Shown in pieces: positions 32,561 through 37,004 of a DNA stretch of 41,929 nt. Below the pieces are notes generated by a model. It worked only from the letters and a program-made list of their open reading frames with translations, was not told where the DNA came from and did not search any database. The stretch comes from Halofilum ochraceum (lineage in GTDB: Bacteria > Pseudomonadota > Gammaproteobacteria > XJ16 > Halofilaceae). The number at the start of each line of letters is the position of its first letter. The first letter of the stretch is position 1. The position numbers and the translations under genes were made by a program. The stretch is taken from the NCBI RefSeq assembly GCF_001614315.2, contig NZ_LVEG02000022.1:1-41929 (forward strand). Reading direction: 5' to 3'.

Positions 32561-33283
32561 ATGATGGCCGATCGGCAGAGTGTCTGCGGGATACCATCCC
32601 CGCGGCGTGCAGGCCAATGCATGCTGGCGCTTCTGATTTCGGCCAGCGCCGACCCAGCCACCGGGATGGGGGCAACCATCGAAGCACGGGTCCTTTCGAG
32701 CGACGGCCCGGTCGCCAACGCCGTCGTTCATGCGACACGCACCGATGGCGAATCCCTGCCGCGTCCGGGGAACCCCGAAGCGGTGATGGATCAACGCGGC
32801 CGTGAATTCGCACCGCACGTGCTGCCCGTACTGGCCGGCACTTCGGTCCGTTTCCCCAACAGCGACGACACCCGGCATCACGTCTACTCGTTCTCGGACG
32901 CGCAGACGTTCGAACTCCAGCTCTATCACGGCGAGACCGCCCGCCCGGTCACATTCGGGCAGCCCGGTGTCGTCACCCTGGGCTGCAATATCCATGACTG
33001 GATGCTCGGATATATCTACGTGCTGGACACGCCCGCATTCGCACGAACGGGCGCCGACGGCGACGCCCGTATCAAGAGCCTGCCGCCCGGTGAATACGAG
33101 GTCTCGGTCTGGCATCCCCGCCTGGTCGACGGGGCCTCTCCACAGGCCCGTGATGCCACCATCGATGAGTCGGGAACGGCGACCCTGAGCTTTGAGATCG
33201 AGGTTTCACCTCCGCGTGATCGGGGCCAGCGTGGTTTCGGCGACCGGGATGAGGAATCGCTGGAAGAGGCGTTCGACAGGTAA
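32561..33283 (+). CDS. Exported cupredoxin-like ('methylamine utilization') protein
   Basis: First gene of a four-gene operon. Protein of 240 residues with an N-terminal hydrophobic export segment (CMLALLISASADPATGMGA). The single beta-sandwich carries a type I copper ligand pattern: RHHVYS (H106/H107), LGCNIHDWM (C142, H145, M148), with the plastocyanin-like spacing expected for a Cys-His-Met loop. Residues after ~165 form a second small beta domain (LPPGEYEVSVWHP) and an acidic tail. Family members are often labelled methylamine utilization proteins, but no methylamine dehydrogenase is here. The start has GGAG five bases upstream. The next gene begins four bases after its stop. Probably a copper-carrying periplasmic signal or electron-transfer partner. 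Confidence 0.8.
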   Translation: MMADRQSVCGIPSPRRAGQCMLALLISASADPATGMGATIEARVLSSDGPVANAVVHATRTDGESLPRPGNPEAVMDQRGREFAPHVLPVLAGTSVRFPNSDDTRHHVYSFSDAQTFELQLYHGETARPVTFGQPGVVTLGCNIHDWMLGYIYVLDTPAFARTGADGDARIKSLPPGEYEVSVWHPRLVDGASPQARDATIDESGTATLSFEIEVSPPRDRGQRGFGDRDEESLEEAFDR

Positions 33284-33287
33284 CCGC

Positions 33288-35639
33288 GTGATCCGCAATC
33301 GTTTCCAACGCAAGCTGGCGCTTTTCTTCACGGCGCTCGTCGCGAGCGTCCAGCTTGCAGCCGTCGTTGCGGTCGTCGAGGCGACCGACCGCAATGTGGC
33401 CCGCCAGGTGGAAGAGGAACTGGCGGTCGGCTCCCGCGTGGTCGCGCGCCTGCTGGAACTGCGCGAGCGCCAGCTGCTCCAGTCGGTGCGGGTGCTTACG
33501 GACGACTTCGGCTTCAAGCGCGCCGTGGCGACCGGCGATCACCCGACCATCCGATCGGCACTCGGCAACCATGCGGCACGCATCGACGCCGACATGGCCG
33601 CGGTACTCGATCCTGACGGCAGCGTACGTGCCGGCACGCGCTCCGATCTTGATCGGGGCGACACGTTCGCGATGGAAGCGCTGCTCGACCGCGCGATCGA
33701 GACGAACGAGGCGGTCGGCTTCGGCCTCATTGGCGAGCGCGCCTGGCAGCTCGTCATCGTGCCTGTACGGGCGCCGGTACCCGTCGCGTGGGCCGTCCTC
33801 GGCTTCGCCGTCGACGATGCGCTCGCGGGCGAGCTGGCCCGATTGACGCGTGCCGAGGTCAGCTTCGAGCGCGTCAACGATGCCCGCGCGAGCGTGCTCG
33901 CGACCAGCCTCGAAGATACCGCGCAGGCGGTGAACCCGGGCATGCCGACCGAGGGCGAGGACGTGCGCACGGTGGATACCGAGGCCGGCCGCCAGCTGGT
34001 CACCACCCGCCGCCTCGCCGCCACCGACAGCGGTCAGCTGGTGGCGACCCTGCAGACGCCACTGGCCGCCGCGCTGGCGCAGTACGAGCCGCTCAAGCGG
34101 CAGTTGCTCATGCTCGCCGGGCTCGCGCTCATCATCACCGTGATCGGTGCGGTCTGGCTGGCACGGACCGTCAGCCGGCCGGTACGCCAACTGGTCGATG
34201 CCGCACAACGGATCGCGGCGGGCGACTATGCCCATCCGGTAGCGATCGGGCAGCGCGATGAGTTCGGCGCGCTCGCAACGGCGTTCAACCGGATGCAGGA
34301 AGCAGTCCGCGAGCGCGAGGACCGGATCGTCCACCAGGCCTACCACGATGAACTGACCGGCCTGCCCAACCGTGCCCTTATGCGTGACCGGCTGCAGCTG
34401 GAGCTGGAGCGGGCCCGGCGCGAGGGGCATTGCGTCGCCGTGGTTGTCATCGACCTGAATCGGTTCAAAGAGATCAATGACAGCCTCGGCCACGAGATCG
34501 GCGACGCGGTACTGAATACCGTCGGCCAGTCTCTGCGCACGGCCCTGCGCGCAAGCGACACGGTCGCCCGACTGGGGGGCGATGAATTCGGCGCGGTCGC
34601 GGGGTGCGAGGACACCGACGACGCGATGGCGCTCGCCGCGCGGATCGAGCATGCCTGGGACAACCCGCTCGATCTGGGGCCGACCACGCTGCGGATCGAT
34701 CAGAGCATGGGGGTTTCGGTCTATCCCGAGCACGGCGATACCGTCGAAACCCTGTTGCGGCGTGCCGACATCGCGATGTACGCCGCCAAGGAGCGTAATG
34801 CGCGCGCCGTGCTGTATGAAAACGGCTGGGACGAGCGCCACCAGTATCAGTTGACCCTGATCGCGGATCTGCGTGATGCGATCGACAGCGACCAGCTGAC
34901 CCTCGAGTACCAGCCGCAGATCGACCTGCGCGATGGCGGCATGAGTCACGTGGAGGCGCTGCTCCGCTGGAATCACCCGCGCCTTGGCAGAGTATCGCCG
35001 CAGGAGTTCGTGCCGCTCGCCGAGAATGCCGGCTTTATCCGGACCCTGACCCGCTGGGTCCTCGGCGAAGTCGTGCGCCAGGCCGGCCGCTGGCGTGCCG
35101 AGGGCATGGACCTTCACGTATCCGTGAATATCTCGGCGCTCGACCTGATCGACGACAGCCTGCCGGATTTCGTCGCCACCACGCTCGCGCACCACGGCGT
35201 CCCGCCCGAACGCCTGGCGCTGGAGGTCACCGAGAGCGCGGTCATGCAGGACACGGCGTTCGCGCTCCGGGTGCTCCAGGGGCTCAAGGGGACCGGTGTC
35301 CGTCTGTCGGTCGACGACTTCGGCACGGGCCAGTCATCGCTGGCGCAGCTGCGCCGCCTGCCGGTGGACGAGCTCAAGATCGACAAGTCCTTCATTTTTG
35401 ATCTGAAGGAAAACAGTAACGATGCGAGCGTCGAGGCGATCGTGCAGTCGGCGATCGACCTCGGCCACAATATGGGCCTGTCGGTCGTCGCCGAGGGCGT
35501 CGAGACCGCGTACTCTCATGCGTGGCTGACCCGGTCGCAATGTGATCTGGCCCAGGGGTACCTGTTCAGCCGCCCCCTCCCCGCGGATGATTTCATGGCC
35601 TGGGTGCGCACCTGGGACAGCAAGAGAGGCAAAGAGTGA
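33288..35639 (+). CDS. Membrane GGDEF-EAL protein with periplasmic sensor and HAMP
   Basis: A 783-residue inner-membrane enzyme for cyclic di-GMP turnover. TM1 (FFTALVASVQLAAVVAVV) is followed by a periplasmic sensor of about 240 residues, TM2 (near residues 273-293), a HAMP linker (RTVSRPVRQLVDAAQRIAAG), GGDEF and EAL. The cyclase site is intact (LGGDEF, residues 430-434) with an RASD inhibitory site. The phosphodiesterase set is intact (E556 in EALLRW, EVTES, DDFGTG, AEGVET). Either or both activities are possible. The GTG start at 33288, four bases after the previous stop, places TM1 at the N-terminus; longer in-frame options would overlap the cupredoxin gene. The stop overlaps the next start (GTGA). 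Confidence 0.92.
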   Translation: MIRNRFQRKLALFFTALVASVQLAAVVAVVEATDRNVARQVEEELAVGSRVVARLLELRERQLLQSVRVLTDDFGFKRAVATGDHPTIRSALGNHAARIDADMAAVLDPDGSVRAGTRSDLDRGDTFAMEALLDRAIETNEAVGFGLIGERAWQLVIVPVRAPVPVAWAVLGFAVDDALAGELARLTRAEVSFERVNDARASVLATSLEDTAQAVNPGMPTEGEDVRTVDTEAGRQLVTTRRLAATDSGQLVATLQTPLAAALAQYEPLKRQLLMLAGLALIITVIGAVWLARTVSRPVRQLVDAAQRIAAGDYAHPVAIGQRDEFGALATAFNRMQEAVREREDRIVHQAYHDELTGLPNRALMRDRLQLELERARREGHCVAVVVIDLNRFKEINDSLGHEIGDAVLNTVGQSLRTALRASDTVARLGGDEFGAVAGCEDTDDAMALAARIEHAWDNPLDLGPTTLRIDQSMGVSVYPEHGDTVETLLRRADIAMYAAKERNARAVLYENGWDERHQYQLTLIADLRDAIDSDQLTLEYQPQIDLRDGGMSHVEALLRWNHPRLGRVSPQEFVPLAENAGFIRTLTRWVLGEVVRQAGRWRAEGMDLHVSVNISALDLIDDSLPDFVATTLAHHGVPPERLALEVTESAVMQDTAFALRVLQGLKGTGVRLSVDDFGTGQSSLAQLRRLPVDELKIDKSFIFDLKENSNDASVEAIVQSAIDLGHNMGLSVVAEGVETAYSHAWLTRSQCDLAQGYLFSRPLPADDFMAWVRTWDSKRGKE

Positions 35640-36532
35640 ACCACGGGTACCGAAGGCTTCGTCGACGAGTGCTCGCGTTCATGACGGCGGCGATCGGCCT
35701 CGCGGCGCTGCCCGCTGCCGCGACCGCCGGCGGCAAACTGATCGGCACCGGCGGAGCCACGCAGATCGAGGGCGCCGCCGGGGGCGGTATCGTGCCCTGG
35801 GCCATGCTCGGCGGCTACGGCACCGAGGGCGAGAACGGTGCGACCGCGTTCTTCTCCAGCGTGGACACGGGCGACTATCGGCTCGATGCCGTTGGTGCCG
35901 GCTTTGTCTGGAACAATCGTGTCGAGGTCTCGTTCGCCCGGCAGGATTTGGACACCGGATCCCTCTCGGCGGCCTTCCCCGCGCTGATCGCACCGGACGC
36001 GCGCATCGGCCAGGACATCTTCGGTGCCAAGCTGCGACTGCTCGGGGACACGGTGTACGGCCGCTGGCCGCAGGTCGCCCTCGGGATCCAGCACAAGCGC
36101 AATCGCGATTTCGACATCCCGTCCGCGGTCGGGGCCCGCGATGATTCGGGGACGGATGTCTATCTCTCCGTGGGCCGGCTCCTGCTTGCGGGCCTGGCCG
36201 GCCGCAACGTCTATCTGAACGGCACGATCCGCTCGACCCGTGCCAACGAACTCGGCCTGCTGGGCTTCGGCGGTCCGGACAACGACGGGCGCGAACTCGT
36301 GGCCGAGGCGAGCGCCGCCATCTTCCTGGACCGCCGGACCGCGATCGGCGTGGAATACCGGCAGAAACCCGATAACCTCGCGTTCGCGGACGAGAGCGAC
36401 TGGAGCGATGTCTTCGTCGCCTGGTTCCCGAGCAAAAACCTGTCGCTGTCCGCCGCCTGGACCGATCTTGGCTCGATCGCGACGCTCGACGATCAACGCG
36501 GGCTCTACCTCTCGGTGGAGGCCGCATTCTGA
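35636..36532 (+). CDS. DUF3034 family protein, predicted outer-membrane barrel
   Basis: Exported protein of 298 residues with signal peptide (FMTAAIGLAALPAAATA) and no further membrane helix. The rest alternates polar and hydrophobic residues with many Gly/Asn turns and ends in VEAAF, the terminal-Phe pattern of outer-membrane beta-barrels. The GGKLIGTGGATQIEGAAGGG start is characteristic of DUF3034, a family without assigned function. GTG start in a four-base overlap with the preceding c-di-GMP gene. A role as barrel or surface protein of the same system is inferred from operon structure. Confidence 0.82.
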   Translation: MNHGYRRLRRRVLAFMTAAIGLAALPAAATAGGKLIGTGGATQIEGAAGGGIVPWAMLGGYGTEGENGATAFFSSVDTGDYRLDAVGAGFVWNNRVEVSFARQDLDTGSLSAAFPALIAPDARIGQDIFGAKLRLLGDTVYGRWPQVALGIQHKRNRDFDIPSAVGARDDSGTDVYLSVGRLLLAGLAGRNVYLNGTIRSTRANELGLLGFGGPDNDGRELVAEASAAIFLDRRTAIGVEYRQKPDNLAFADESDWSDVFVAWFPSKNLSLSAAWTDLGSIATLDDQRGLYLSVEAAF

Positions 36533-36539
36533 GGTGATG

Positions 36540-37004
36540 ATGCCAAGACACAGCCCAAGAGCCTGCCCGAGGAACCTGGCCGGCCTCGCGCTCGTGCTCC
36601 TCACCGCCTGCGCCGGCCCCAAACCCGCACAAGACGCGGAACTCTATGAGGCGCTCGGTGAGCGATCCGGTATCCGCGCGATCGTCGACGAAACACTGCA
36701 GAATGTCGCCGATGACGCGCGCATTGTGGACATCTTCGCGGACTCGGACATCGGCCGCCTGCGCACGAAAATCGTGGAGCAGATCTGCGACATCAGCGGT
36801 GGCCCCTGCAACTACAGCGGCGATTCGATGAAACGCTCGCACGAGGGACTCGGCATCGACGCGGCCGAGTTCAACGCCTTCGTCGAAGACCTGCGCACGG
36901 CCATGATCGACCTGCGGGTGCCCGAATCGGCACAGAACCGTCTGCTCGCACGCCTCGCCCCCATGCGCGAAGACATCATCGAGCGGGACGGTCCGGAAGA
37001 CTGA
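36540..37004 (+). CDS. Group I truncated hemoglobin, predicted lipoprotein
   Basis: Last gene of the operon, 154 residues. It has a lipoprotein signal (LAGLALVLLTAC, lipobox Cys near residue 20) followed by a group I trHb: LYEALGERSGIRAIVDETL, FADSDIGRLRTKIVEQIC, and MKRSHEGLGI carrying the proximal histidine (H101). So the globin is predicted to be tethered to the envelope, not cytoplasmic. An ATG three bases earlier (36537) is equally possible; GAGG at 36531-36534 favours the second. Seven bases separate it from the DUF3034 stop. Ligand could be O2, NO or CO. Followed after 25 bases by palindromic element copy 2. Confidence 0.87.
   Translation: MPRHSPRACPRNLAGLALVLLTACAGPKPAQDAELYEALGERSGIRAIVDETLQNVADDARIVDIFADSDIGRLRTKIVEQICDISGGPCNYSGDSMKRSHEGLGIDAAEFNAFVEDLRTAMIDLRVPESAQNRLLARLAPMREDIIERDGPED

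Follow-up and report, generated by a model that had tools for sequence, protein, structure and literature searches.

A conserved set of four genes for a cupredoxin, a GGDEF-EAL receptor, a DUF3034 protein and a truncated globin probably represents an envelope signalling system not described so far

Four closely packed genes of Halofilum ochraceum raise the question whether an exported copper protein, a membrane-bound c-di-GMP enzyme, a DUF3034 protein and an exported truncated globin belong to one system, and what such a system might do. The window, i.e., the whole stretch of DNA analysed here, comprises positions 1-41,929 of the forward strand of contig NZ_LVEG02000022.1 (GCF_001614315.2; 41,929 bp). 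A sequence-only reading of it had suggested a relay by which globin and cupredoxin present a signal to the c-di-GMP enzyme.

Organization of the locus and conservation of the linkage

The four collinear genes (Table 1) are spaced by 4 bases, by a GTGA overlap, and by 4 or 7 bases, the last value depending on which of the two possible starts of the globin (36537 or 36540) is used. The tight packing, the coordinates and the overlap given in the sequence-only reading were reproduced, and its naming of the genes (cupredoxin-like, GGDEF-EAL with periplasmic sensor, DUF3034, truncated globin) was borne out by domain searches and by the model of the cupredoxin. The GC content of the module (0.670, vs. 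0.679 for the window) gives no sign of recent transfer. No convincing sigma-70 promoter or terminator was found at the locus in the window. Upstream of the cupredoxin gene, sites resembling those of FNR/Anr, NsrR and copper regulators did not exceed the expectation from shuffled sequence, and no shared regulator site was found; a short match of the AAGATGC type showed a weak excess over shuffled sequence, which is not trusted. An Rfam search of the window returned two tRNAs and nothing else. The AKR gene situated upstream was considered as a further member and rejected, as it does not recur among the loci.

Table 1. Features of the four-gene locus in the window and partners of the cupredoxin at other loci
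Feature	Position or loci	Strand	Evidence or remark
Exported cupredoxin, 240 aa	32561..33283	+	ORF; Pfam CarboxypepD_reg; structure model
Cupredoxin Cu ligands	H106 codon 32876; C142 32984; H145 32993; M148 33002	+	predicted
Inner-membrane receptor-enzyme, 783 aa, GTG start	33288..35639	+	ORF; Pfam dCache_3, HAMP, GGDEF, EAL
Receptor-enzyme domains	dCache_3 33402-33866; HAMP 34155-34313; GGDEF 34338-34799; EAL 34863-35576	+	Pfam
DUF3034 protein, 298 aa, GTG start	35636..36532	+	ORF; Pfam DUF3034 E 1.3e-107
Exported group I truncated globin, 155 aa	36537 (or 36540)..37004	+	ORF; Bac_globin E 4.6e-15
Globin residues	lipobox Cys25; proximal His102; Cys84/Cys91; B10 Leu54; E7 Leu75; E11 Ile79; E10 Lys78		
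Cupredoxin with class III nucleotidyl cyclase output	L170, L171, L183, L188, L189, L190		6 loci
Cupredoxin with Ser/Thr protein kinase output	L172, L194, L196, L198, L199, L200		6 loci
Cupredoxin with HisKA histidine kinase output	L181		1 locus
Porin-like partner of cupredoxin	L157:4773-6014	-	
Porin-like partner of cupredoxin	L158:4749-6011	-	
Porin-like partner of cupredoxin	L162:6550-7803	+	
Porin-like partner of cupredoxin	L168:6622-7833	+	
Porin-like partner of cupredoxin	L191:4669-6009	-	
Porin-like partner of cupredoxin	L192:315-2120	-	

Concerning the conservation of this arrangement, 398 Pseudomonadota genomes were searched for DUF3034, and about 15 kb around each match were compared with the proteins of the window. 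DUF3034 is present in 39 of the 398 genomes, and the globin directly adjoins it in all 39; the four genes are clustered in 30 of these (the genome of the window included). The globin also occurs at each of 80 named GTDB loci with DUF3034 (Pseudomonas, Xanthomonas, Halopseudomonas, Stutzerimonas, Marinobacter, Tahibacter, Lysobacterales and others), most of which exhibit exactly the order of the window. The arrangement of globin and DUF3034 is thus far beyond chance. Besides the order of the window (cupredoxin, enzyme, DUF3034, globin), the order DUF3034, globin, cupredoxin, enzyme is found, as well as two divergent pairs in more distant families. No other neighbour family recurred in an all-against-all comparison of the ORFs flanking the DUF3034 loci; additional large clusters were taken to be shadows of these genes on the antisense strand, and small ones to be confined to few related genomes. 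Since the four genes remain neighbours even where their order is permuted or divergent, and no further family recurs beside them, they evidently are one conserved unit in varied genomes.

The neighbourhood search proposed as a check of the system idea has therefore come out in its favour: linkage of the homologues is the rule, the order is not specific to one lineage, the copper ligands are invariant, and most globins have a lipobox-like Cys (see below). The belief that similar gene sets occur in other gammaproteobacteria also proved right, the module being common in Pseudomonas, Xanthomonas and relatives; within the window's own family, DUF3034 is found in one of three genomes, that of the window itself. 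The evolutionary distances of the four proteins are correlated.

Two side observations concern variants of these loci. At some Pseudomonas loci, of the P. fluorescens group and others, the cupredoxin gene is closely preceded on the same strand by a second gene for a GGDEF-EAL protein (L090, L103, L108, L119, L124, L125, L143, L144, L147, L148). Genome G078 carries on contig C3 (L067:6483-7722) a second DUF3034-globin pair, which is fragmented by in-frame stops and represents a decaying copy, the intact pair being situated on contig C1.

Predicted properties of the four proteins

The cupredoxin domain is modelled (pLDDT 90) as a plastocyanin-type fold inserted in an Ig fold resembling CarboxypepD_reg; it superposes on plastocyanin-type proteins with Z 12.4 over 83 residues at 1.8 A, and the structure matches of the model include carboxypeptidases D and N. 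All 159 homologues share H106, C142, H145 and M148, whereas H107, likewise named as a copper residue in the sequence-only reading, is His in only 77 of the 159 and Gln or Asn in most others, so it was rejected as a conserved ligand. By its fold and its His, Cys, His and Met ligands, the protein is assigned to the type-1 cupredoxins, with copper binding predicted.

In the receptor-enzyme of the window, the GGDEF motif, the RxxD site and the EAL motifs are all intact, as had been claimed, but this copy is atypical. Among 100 DUF3034-linked enzymes adjacent to a cupredoxin, the catalytic residues of the EAL domain (E.L.R, DD[FY]G) are kept in every one, and 12 have a canonical-like GGDEF motif and 88 a degenerate one; in a phylogenetically spread sample the respective numbers are 31/31 for the EAL residues and 10/31 for a canonical-like GGDEF. 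The evolutionary distances of the GGDEF domain are similar to those of the sensor, both being about twice those of the EAL domain. Since GGDEF is mostly degenerate and EAL always intact, the ancestral output would be c-di-GMP hydrolysis, and synthesis as a co-equal output, implied by the earlier wording, is not upheld. We infer that most members are phosphodiesterases with a regulatory GGDEF domain, and the copy in the window may both hydrolyse and synthesise c-di-GMP. The dCache_3 domain has a conserved motif (D73, 99%; N94; R98), and the sensor region contains no well-conserved Cys.

The DUF3034 protein possesses a signal peptide, a Gly-rich N-terminal segment and a terminal Phe, and is modelled with moderate confidence (pLDDT 73) as a 12-strand outer-membrane beta barrel, in line with its earlier description as a predicted outer-membrane protein. 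The nearest fold is FapF (Z 20.1, 223 residues, 3.2 A, 13% identity), with other barrels (KdgM, NanC, COG4313) within 3 Z units of this match. The Gly-rich N-terminus, highly conserved and poorly modelled, is a candidate docking or plug segment.

The best PDB relatives of the globin are group 1 truncated haemoglobins, its PDB matches include THB1, and the proximal F8 His is present in 124 of 124 homologues; together with the Bac_globin match, this assigns it to the group I truncated haemoglobins. A lipid anchor, as claimed previously, is suggested for the window by the lipobox LLTAC, and a lipobox-like Cys occurs in 108/124 globins; the feature is not universal, however, being absent from 13 of 39 globins in a diverse sample. 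The Cys pair, conserved in 123/124, could form a disulphide in the periplasm. Concerning the distal pocket, the positions (assigned by alignment) are apolar: B10 is Leu, Val, Ile or Met in 123/124, E7 is Leu, Phe, Val or Ile, and E11 is Leu, Phe or Ile. The O2-stabilising TyrB10 and Gln E7/E11, which are typical of characterised group I members and stand outside the definition of the fold, are absent here; this weakens the usual reading as O2 binding or NO dioxygenase and leaves the fold membership unaffected. A role in O2 storage was considered and rejected. At E10, Lys is found in 65/124 globins, and in THB1 of Chlamydomonas the Lys at this position is a haem ligand. Other haem sensors with an apolar pocket prefer NO or CO to O2; given the apolar pocket, NO or another haem ligand would likewise be a more likely ligand of this globin than O2.

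Two pairs and the exchange of the output domain

According to a profile search of the 398 genomes, the cupredoxin is present in 38 of the 39 genomes with DUF3034 vs. 20 of the 359 without it (Fisher p 3.5e-37, a value inflated by the kinship of the genomes, which does not affect its direction); the exception, G078, has DUF3034 and globin without any cupredoxin. In six genomes the cupredoxin is unlinked from DUF3034, and in five of these it has a full-length dCache_3-HAMP-GGDEF-EAL homologue of its own as neighbour, a pairing also found in several genomes lacking DUF3034. DUF3034 and globin without a linked GGDEF-EAL gene occur in four genomes from a single family and in a small number of further ones, which suggests that part of their job may be independent of c-di-GMP. 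As the cupredoxin accompanies the enzyme where DUF3034 is unlinked or absent, cupredoxin and receptor make up one pair, and DUF3034 and globin a second, predicted outer-membrane one, added to the receptor system.

At other loci, the gene after that of the cupredoxin encodes a protein which aligns to the enzyme of the window only across the sensor and HAMP (about residues 5-345) and continues into a different output: a nucleotidyl cyclase, a Ser/Thr kinase or a histidine kinase (Table 1). These outputs were identified by Pfam on L170, L171, L172, L181, L183, L188, L194, L196 and L198, and in the remaining loci by similarity to these; the sensors of L196 and L200 have diverged further and give no direct match to the enzyme of the window. 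In L194, a divergent DUF3034 lies beside the kinase version, with the nearest globin about 10 kb off on the same contig; between the two lies a gene for an RHS-like repeat protein of 1319 aa (L194:20-3979, genome G511). Since cupredoxin and dCache_3-HAMP are kept while the cytoplasmic output is swapped, the cupredoxin is shown by comparative genomics to be a dedicated partner of a predicted dCache_3-HAMP inner-membrane receptor. This swapping behind a constant pair is the strongest indication that the cupredoxin would serve the periplasmic part of the receptor, not one particular output, and the tie between copper protein and periplasmic sensor presumed in the sequence-only reading holds at the level of gene context. 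Distance correlations did not discriminate between co-evolution of the cupredoxin with the sensor and with the EAL domain (partial r 0.32 vs. 0.25).

The cupredoxin family has further neighbours. At six loci without a receptor it is followed by an exported porin-like protein of about 410 aa (Table 1), a second, unrelated-looking barrel partner whose similarity to Porin_4 is weak and found in one member. In G126, an unlinked cupredoxin gene abuts a redoxin gene of the AhpC/TSA type, again with no receptor there (L154:5530-6863).

A possible envelope relay, its alternatives and known systems

The set recurring across many Proteobacteria has the appearance of an envelope signalling system not yet described, and a relay acting as one signalling system is the reading that we consider fairly probable. 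The barrel would admit, or dock, a signal at the outer membrane; the haem of the globin would bind or reduce a small redox molecule; the copper protein, taking up the redox or metal state that results, would deliver it through the periplasm to the dCache_3 domain; and such an input would alter the c-di-GMP level and thereby attachment or motility. In the DUF3034 version, EAL would be the conserved active part, with c-di-GMP hydrolysis as its usual action. That the chemistry of the globin concerns NO or redox is a guess that we hold to be rather doubtful. More generally, a new receptor class can tentatively be proposed: dCache_3-HAMP receptors with swappable outputs (c-di-GMP phosphodiesterase, cyclic-nucleotide cyclase, Ser/Thr kinase, histidine kinase) that obligately receive their periplasmic input from a type-1 copper protein. 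In the DUF3034 version of this class, an outer-membrane barrel together with a haem lipoprotein would supply the feed, such that surface redox or NO chemistry would set c-di-GMP. The proposal is possible, if somewhat short of an even chance.

Cupredoxin, globin and DUF3034 might instead constitute a periplasmic chain for electron transfer or detoxification (of NO, peroxide or copper), with the GGDEF-EAL protein as a co-regulated controller that senses the substrate directly through dCache_3, without a copper-protein relay. The presence of two envelope-type redox-metal proteins fits such a chain, as do the dCache_3 domain's own conserved motif, which could bind a ligand itself, and the existence of DUF3034-globin pairs without a linked enzyme. 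However, the cupredoxin occurs with the receptor where DUF3034 or globin is absent and follows it through four different outputs, and no oxidoreductase or cytochrome recurs near DUF3034 loci, so that we regard a chain of this kind as unlikely.

Far less probable is a role of DUF3034 as a FapF-type channel for secretion or uptake, with globin and cupredoxin as maturation or cargo factors and c-di-GMP controlling export, as in biofilm matrix secretion. FapF is indeed the best fold match, and the conserved, not confidently folded Gly-rich segment would fit this reading. Yet the identity is low, other barrels score nearly as well, and function does not follow from a shared fold; furthermore, the FapF exporter, a 12-strand barrel with a plug, is encoded in an operon with amyloid subunits, whereas no amyloid subunit, protease or other gene family recurs near DUF3034. 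Lowest of all we place a cassette whose genes are only inherited together, their linkage reflecting a history of transfer or shared expression and no joint action. The correlated distances of the four proteins are what any co-inherited cassette would exhibit, but adjacency has outlasted reordering and splitting into divergent pairs, and the cupredoxin is kept elsewhere in genomes where DUF3034 and globin stand alone.

Compared to known systems, the envelope relay would not be without precedent in principle, control of c-di-GMP receptors by accessory proteins being already known. In the NspS-MbaA system of Vibrio, periplasmic NspS, a polyamine-binding protein of the solute-binding type, is encoded beside a GGDEF-EAL receptor and feeds the signal to its periplasmic domain; here, in contrast, the partner is a copper protein, and an outer-membrane pair is added. 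In YfiBNR (TpbB) of Pseudomonas (PMC2837407, PMC4655355), control of an inner-membrane c-di-GMP enzyme similarly lies with a lipoprotein of the outer membrane and a soluble protein of the periplasm, but neither YfiB nor YfiR is a metalloprotein, and a cyclase forms the output, as opposed to the cupredoxin, globin, barrel and EAL-dominated enzyme found here. The four proteins gave no match to the families of YfiR-like repressors or OmpA-like YfiB lipoproteins in Pfam and NCBIfam, and the only overlap is the HAMP-GGDEF region shared with YfiN; the module is thus not a member of YfiBNR and may work like it. Globin-coupled and H-NOX sensors also couple haem chemistry to c-di-GMP, these being cytoplasmic 3/3 globin fusions or H-NOX partners (PMC8846402), whereas the globin here is a free, exported 2/2 truncated one. 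The DUF3365 sensors link an extracytoplasmic Cache-type receptor to haem with NO-like properties; they carry c-haem in the Cache domain itself (PMC12889525), whereas here the sensor region has no well-conserved Cys, and haem and copper would sit on separate proteins. Neither the four-gene system nor a family of cupredoxin-linked Cache-HAMP cyclase or kinase receptors was found described in the open-licence literature, and a subscription paper on the four-gene system could exist.

If the relay is real, it would link c-di-GMP to the chemistry of copper and haem on the outer side of the inner membrane, an input absent from the 2022 census of c-di-GMP sensing, in which the terms copper and hemoglobin do not appear (PMC8846402). 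It would also provide a first context for DUF3034, on which almost no literature exists, and for those truncated haemoglobins that are exported and have an apolar pocket. The swapping of output domains makes the link between cupredoxin and receptor a sharp, testable claim, and as Pseudomonas, Xanthomonas and Gammaproteobacteria related to them commonly carry the module, it can be examined directly in everyday laboratory strains.
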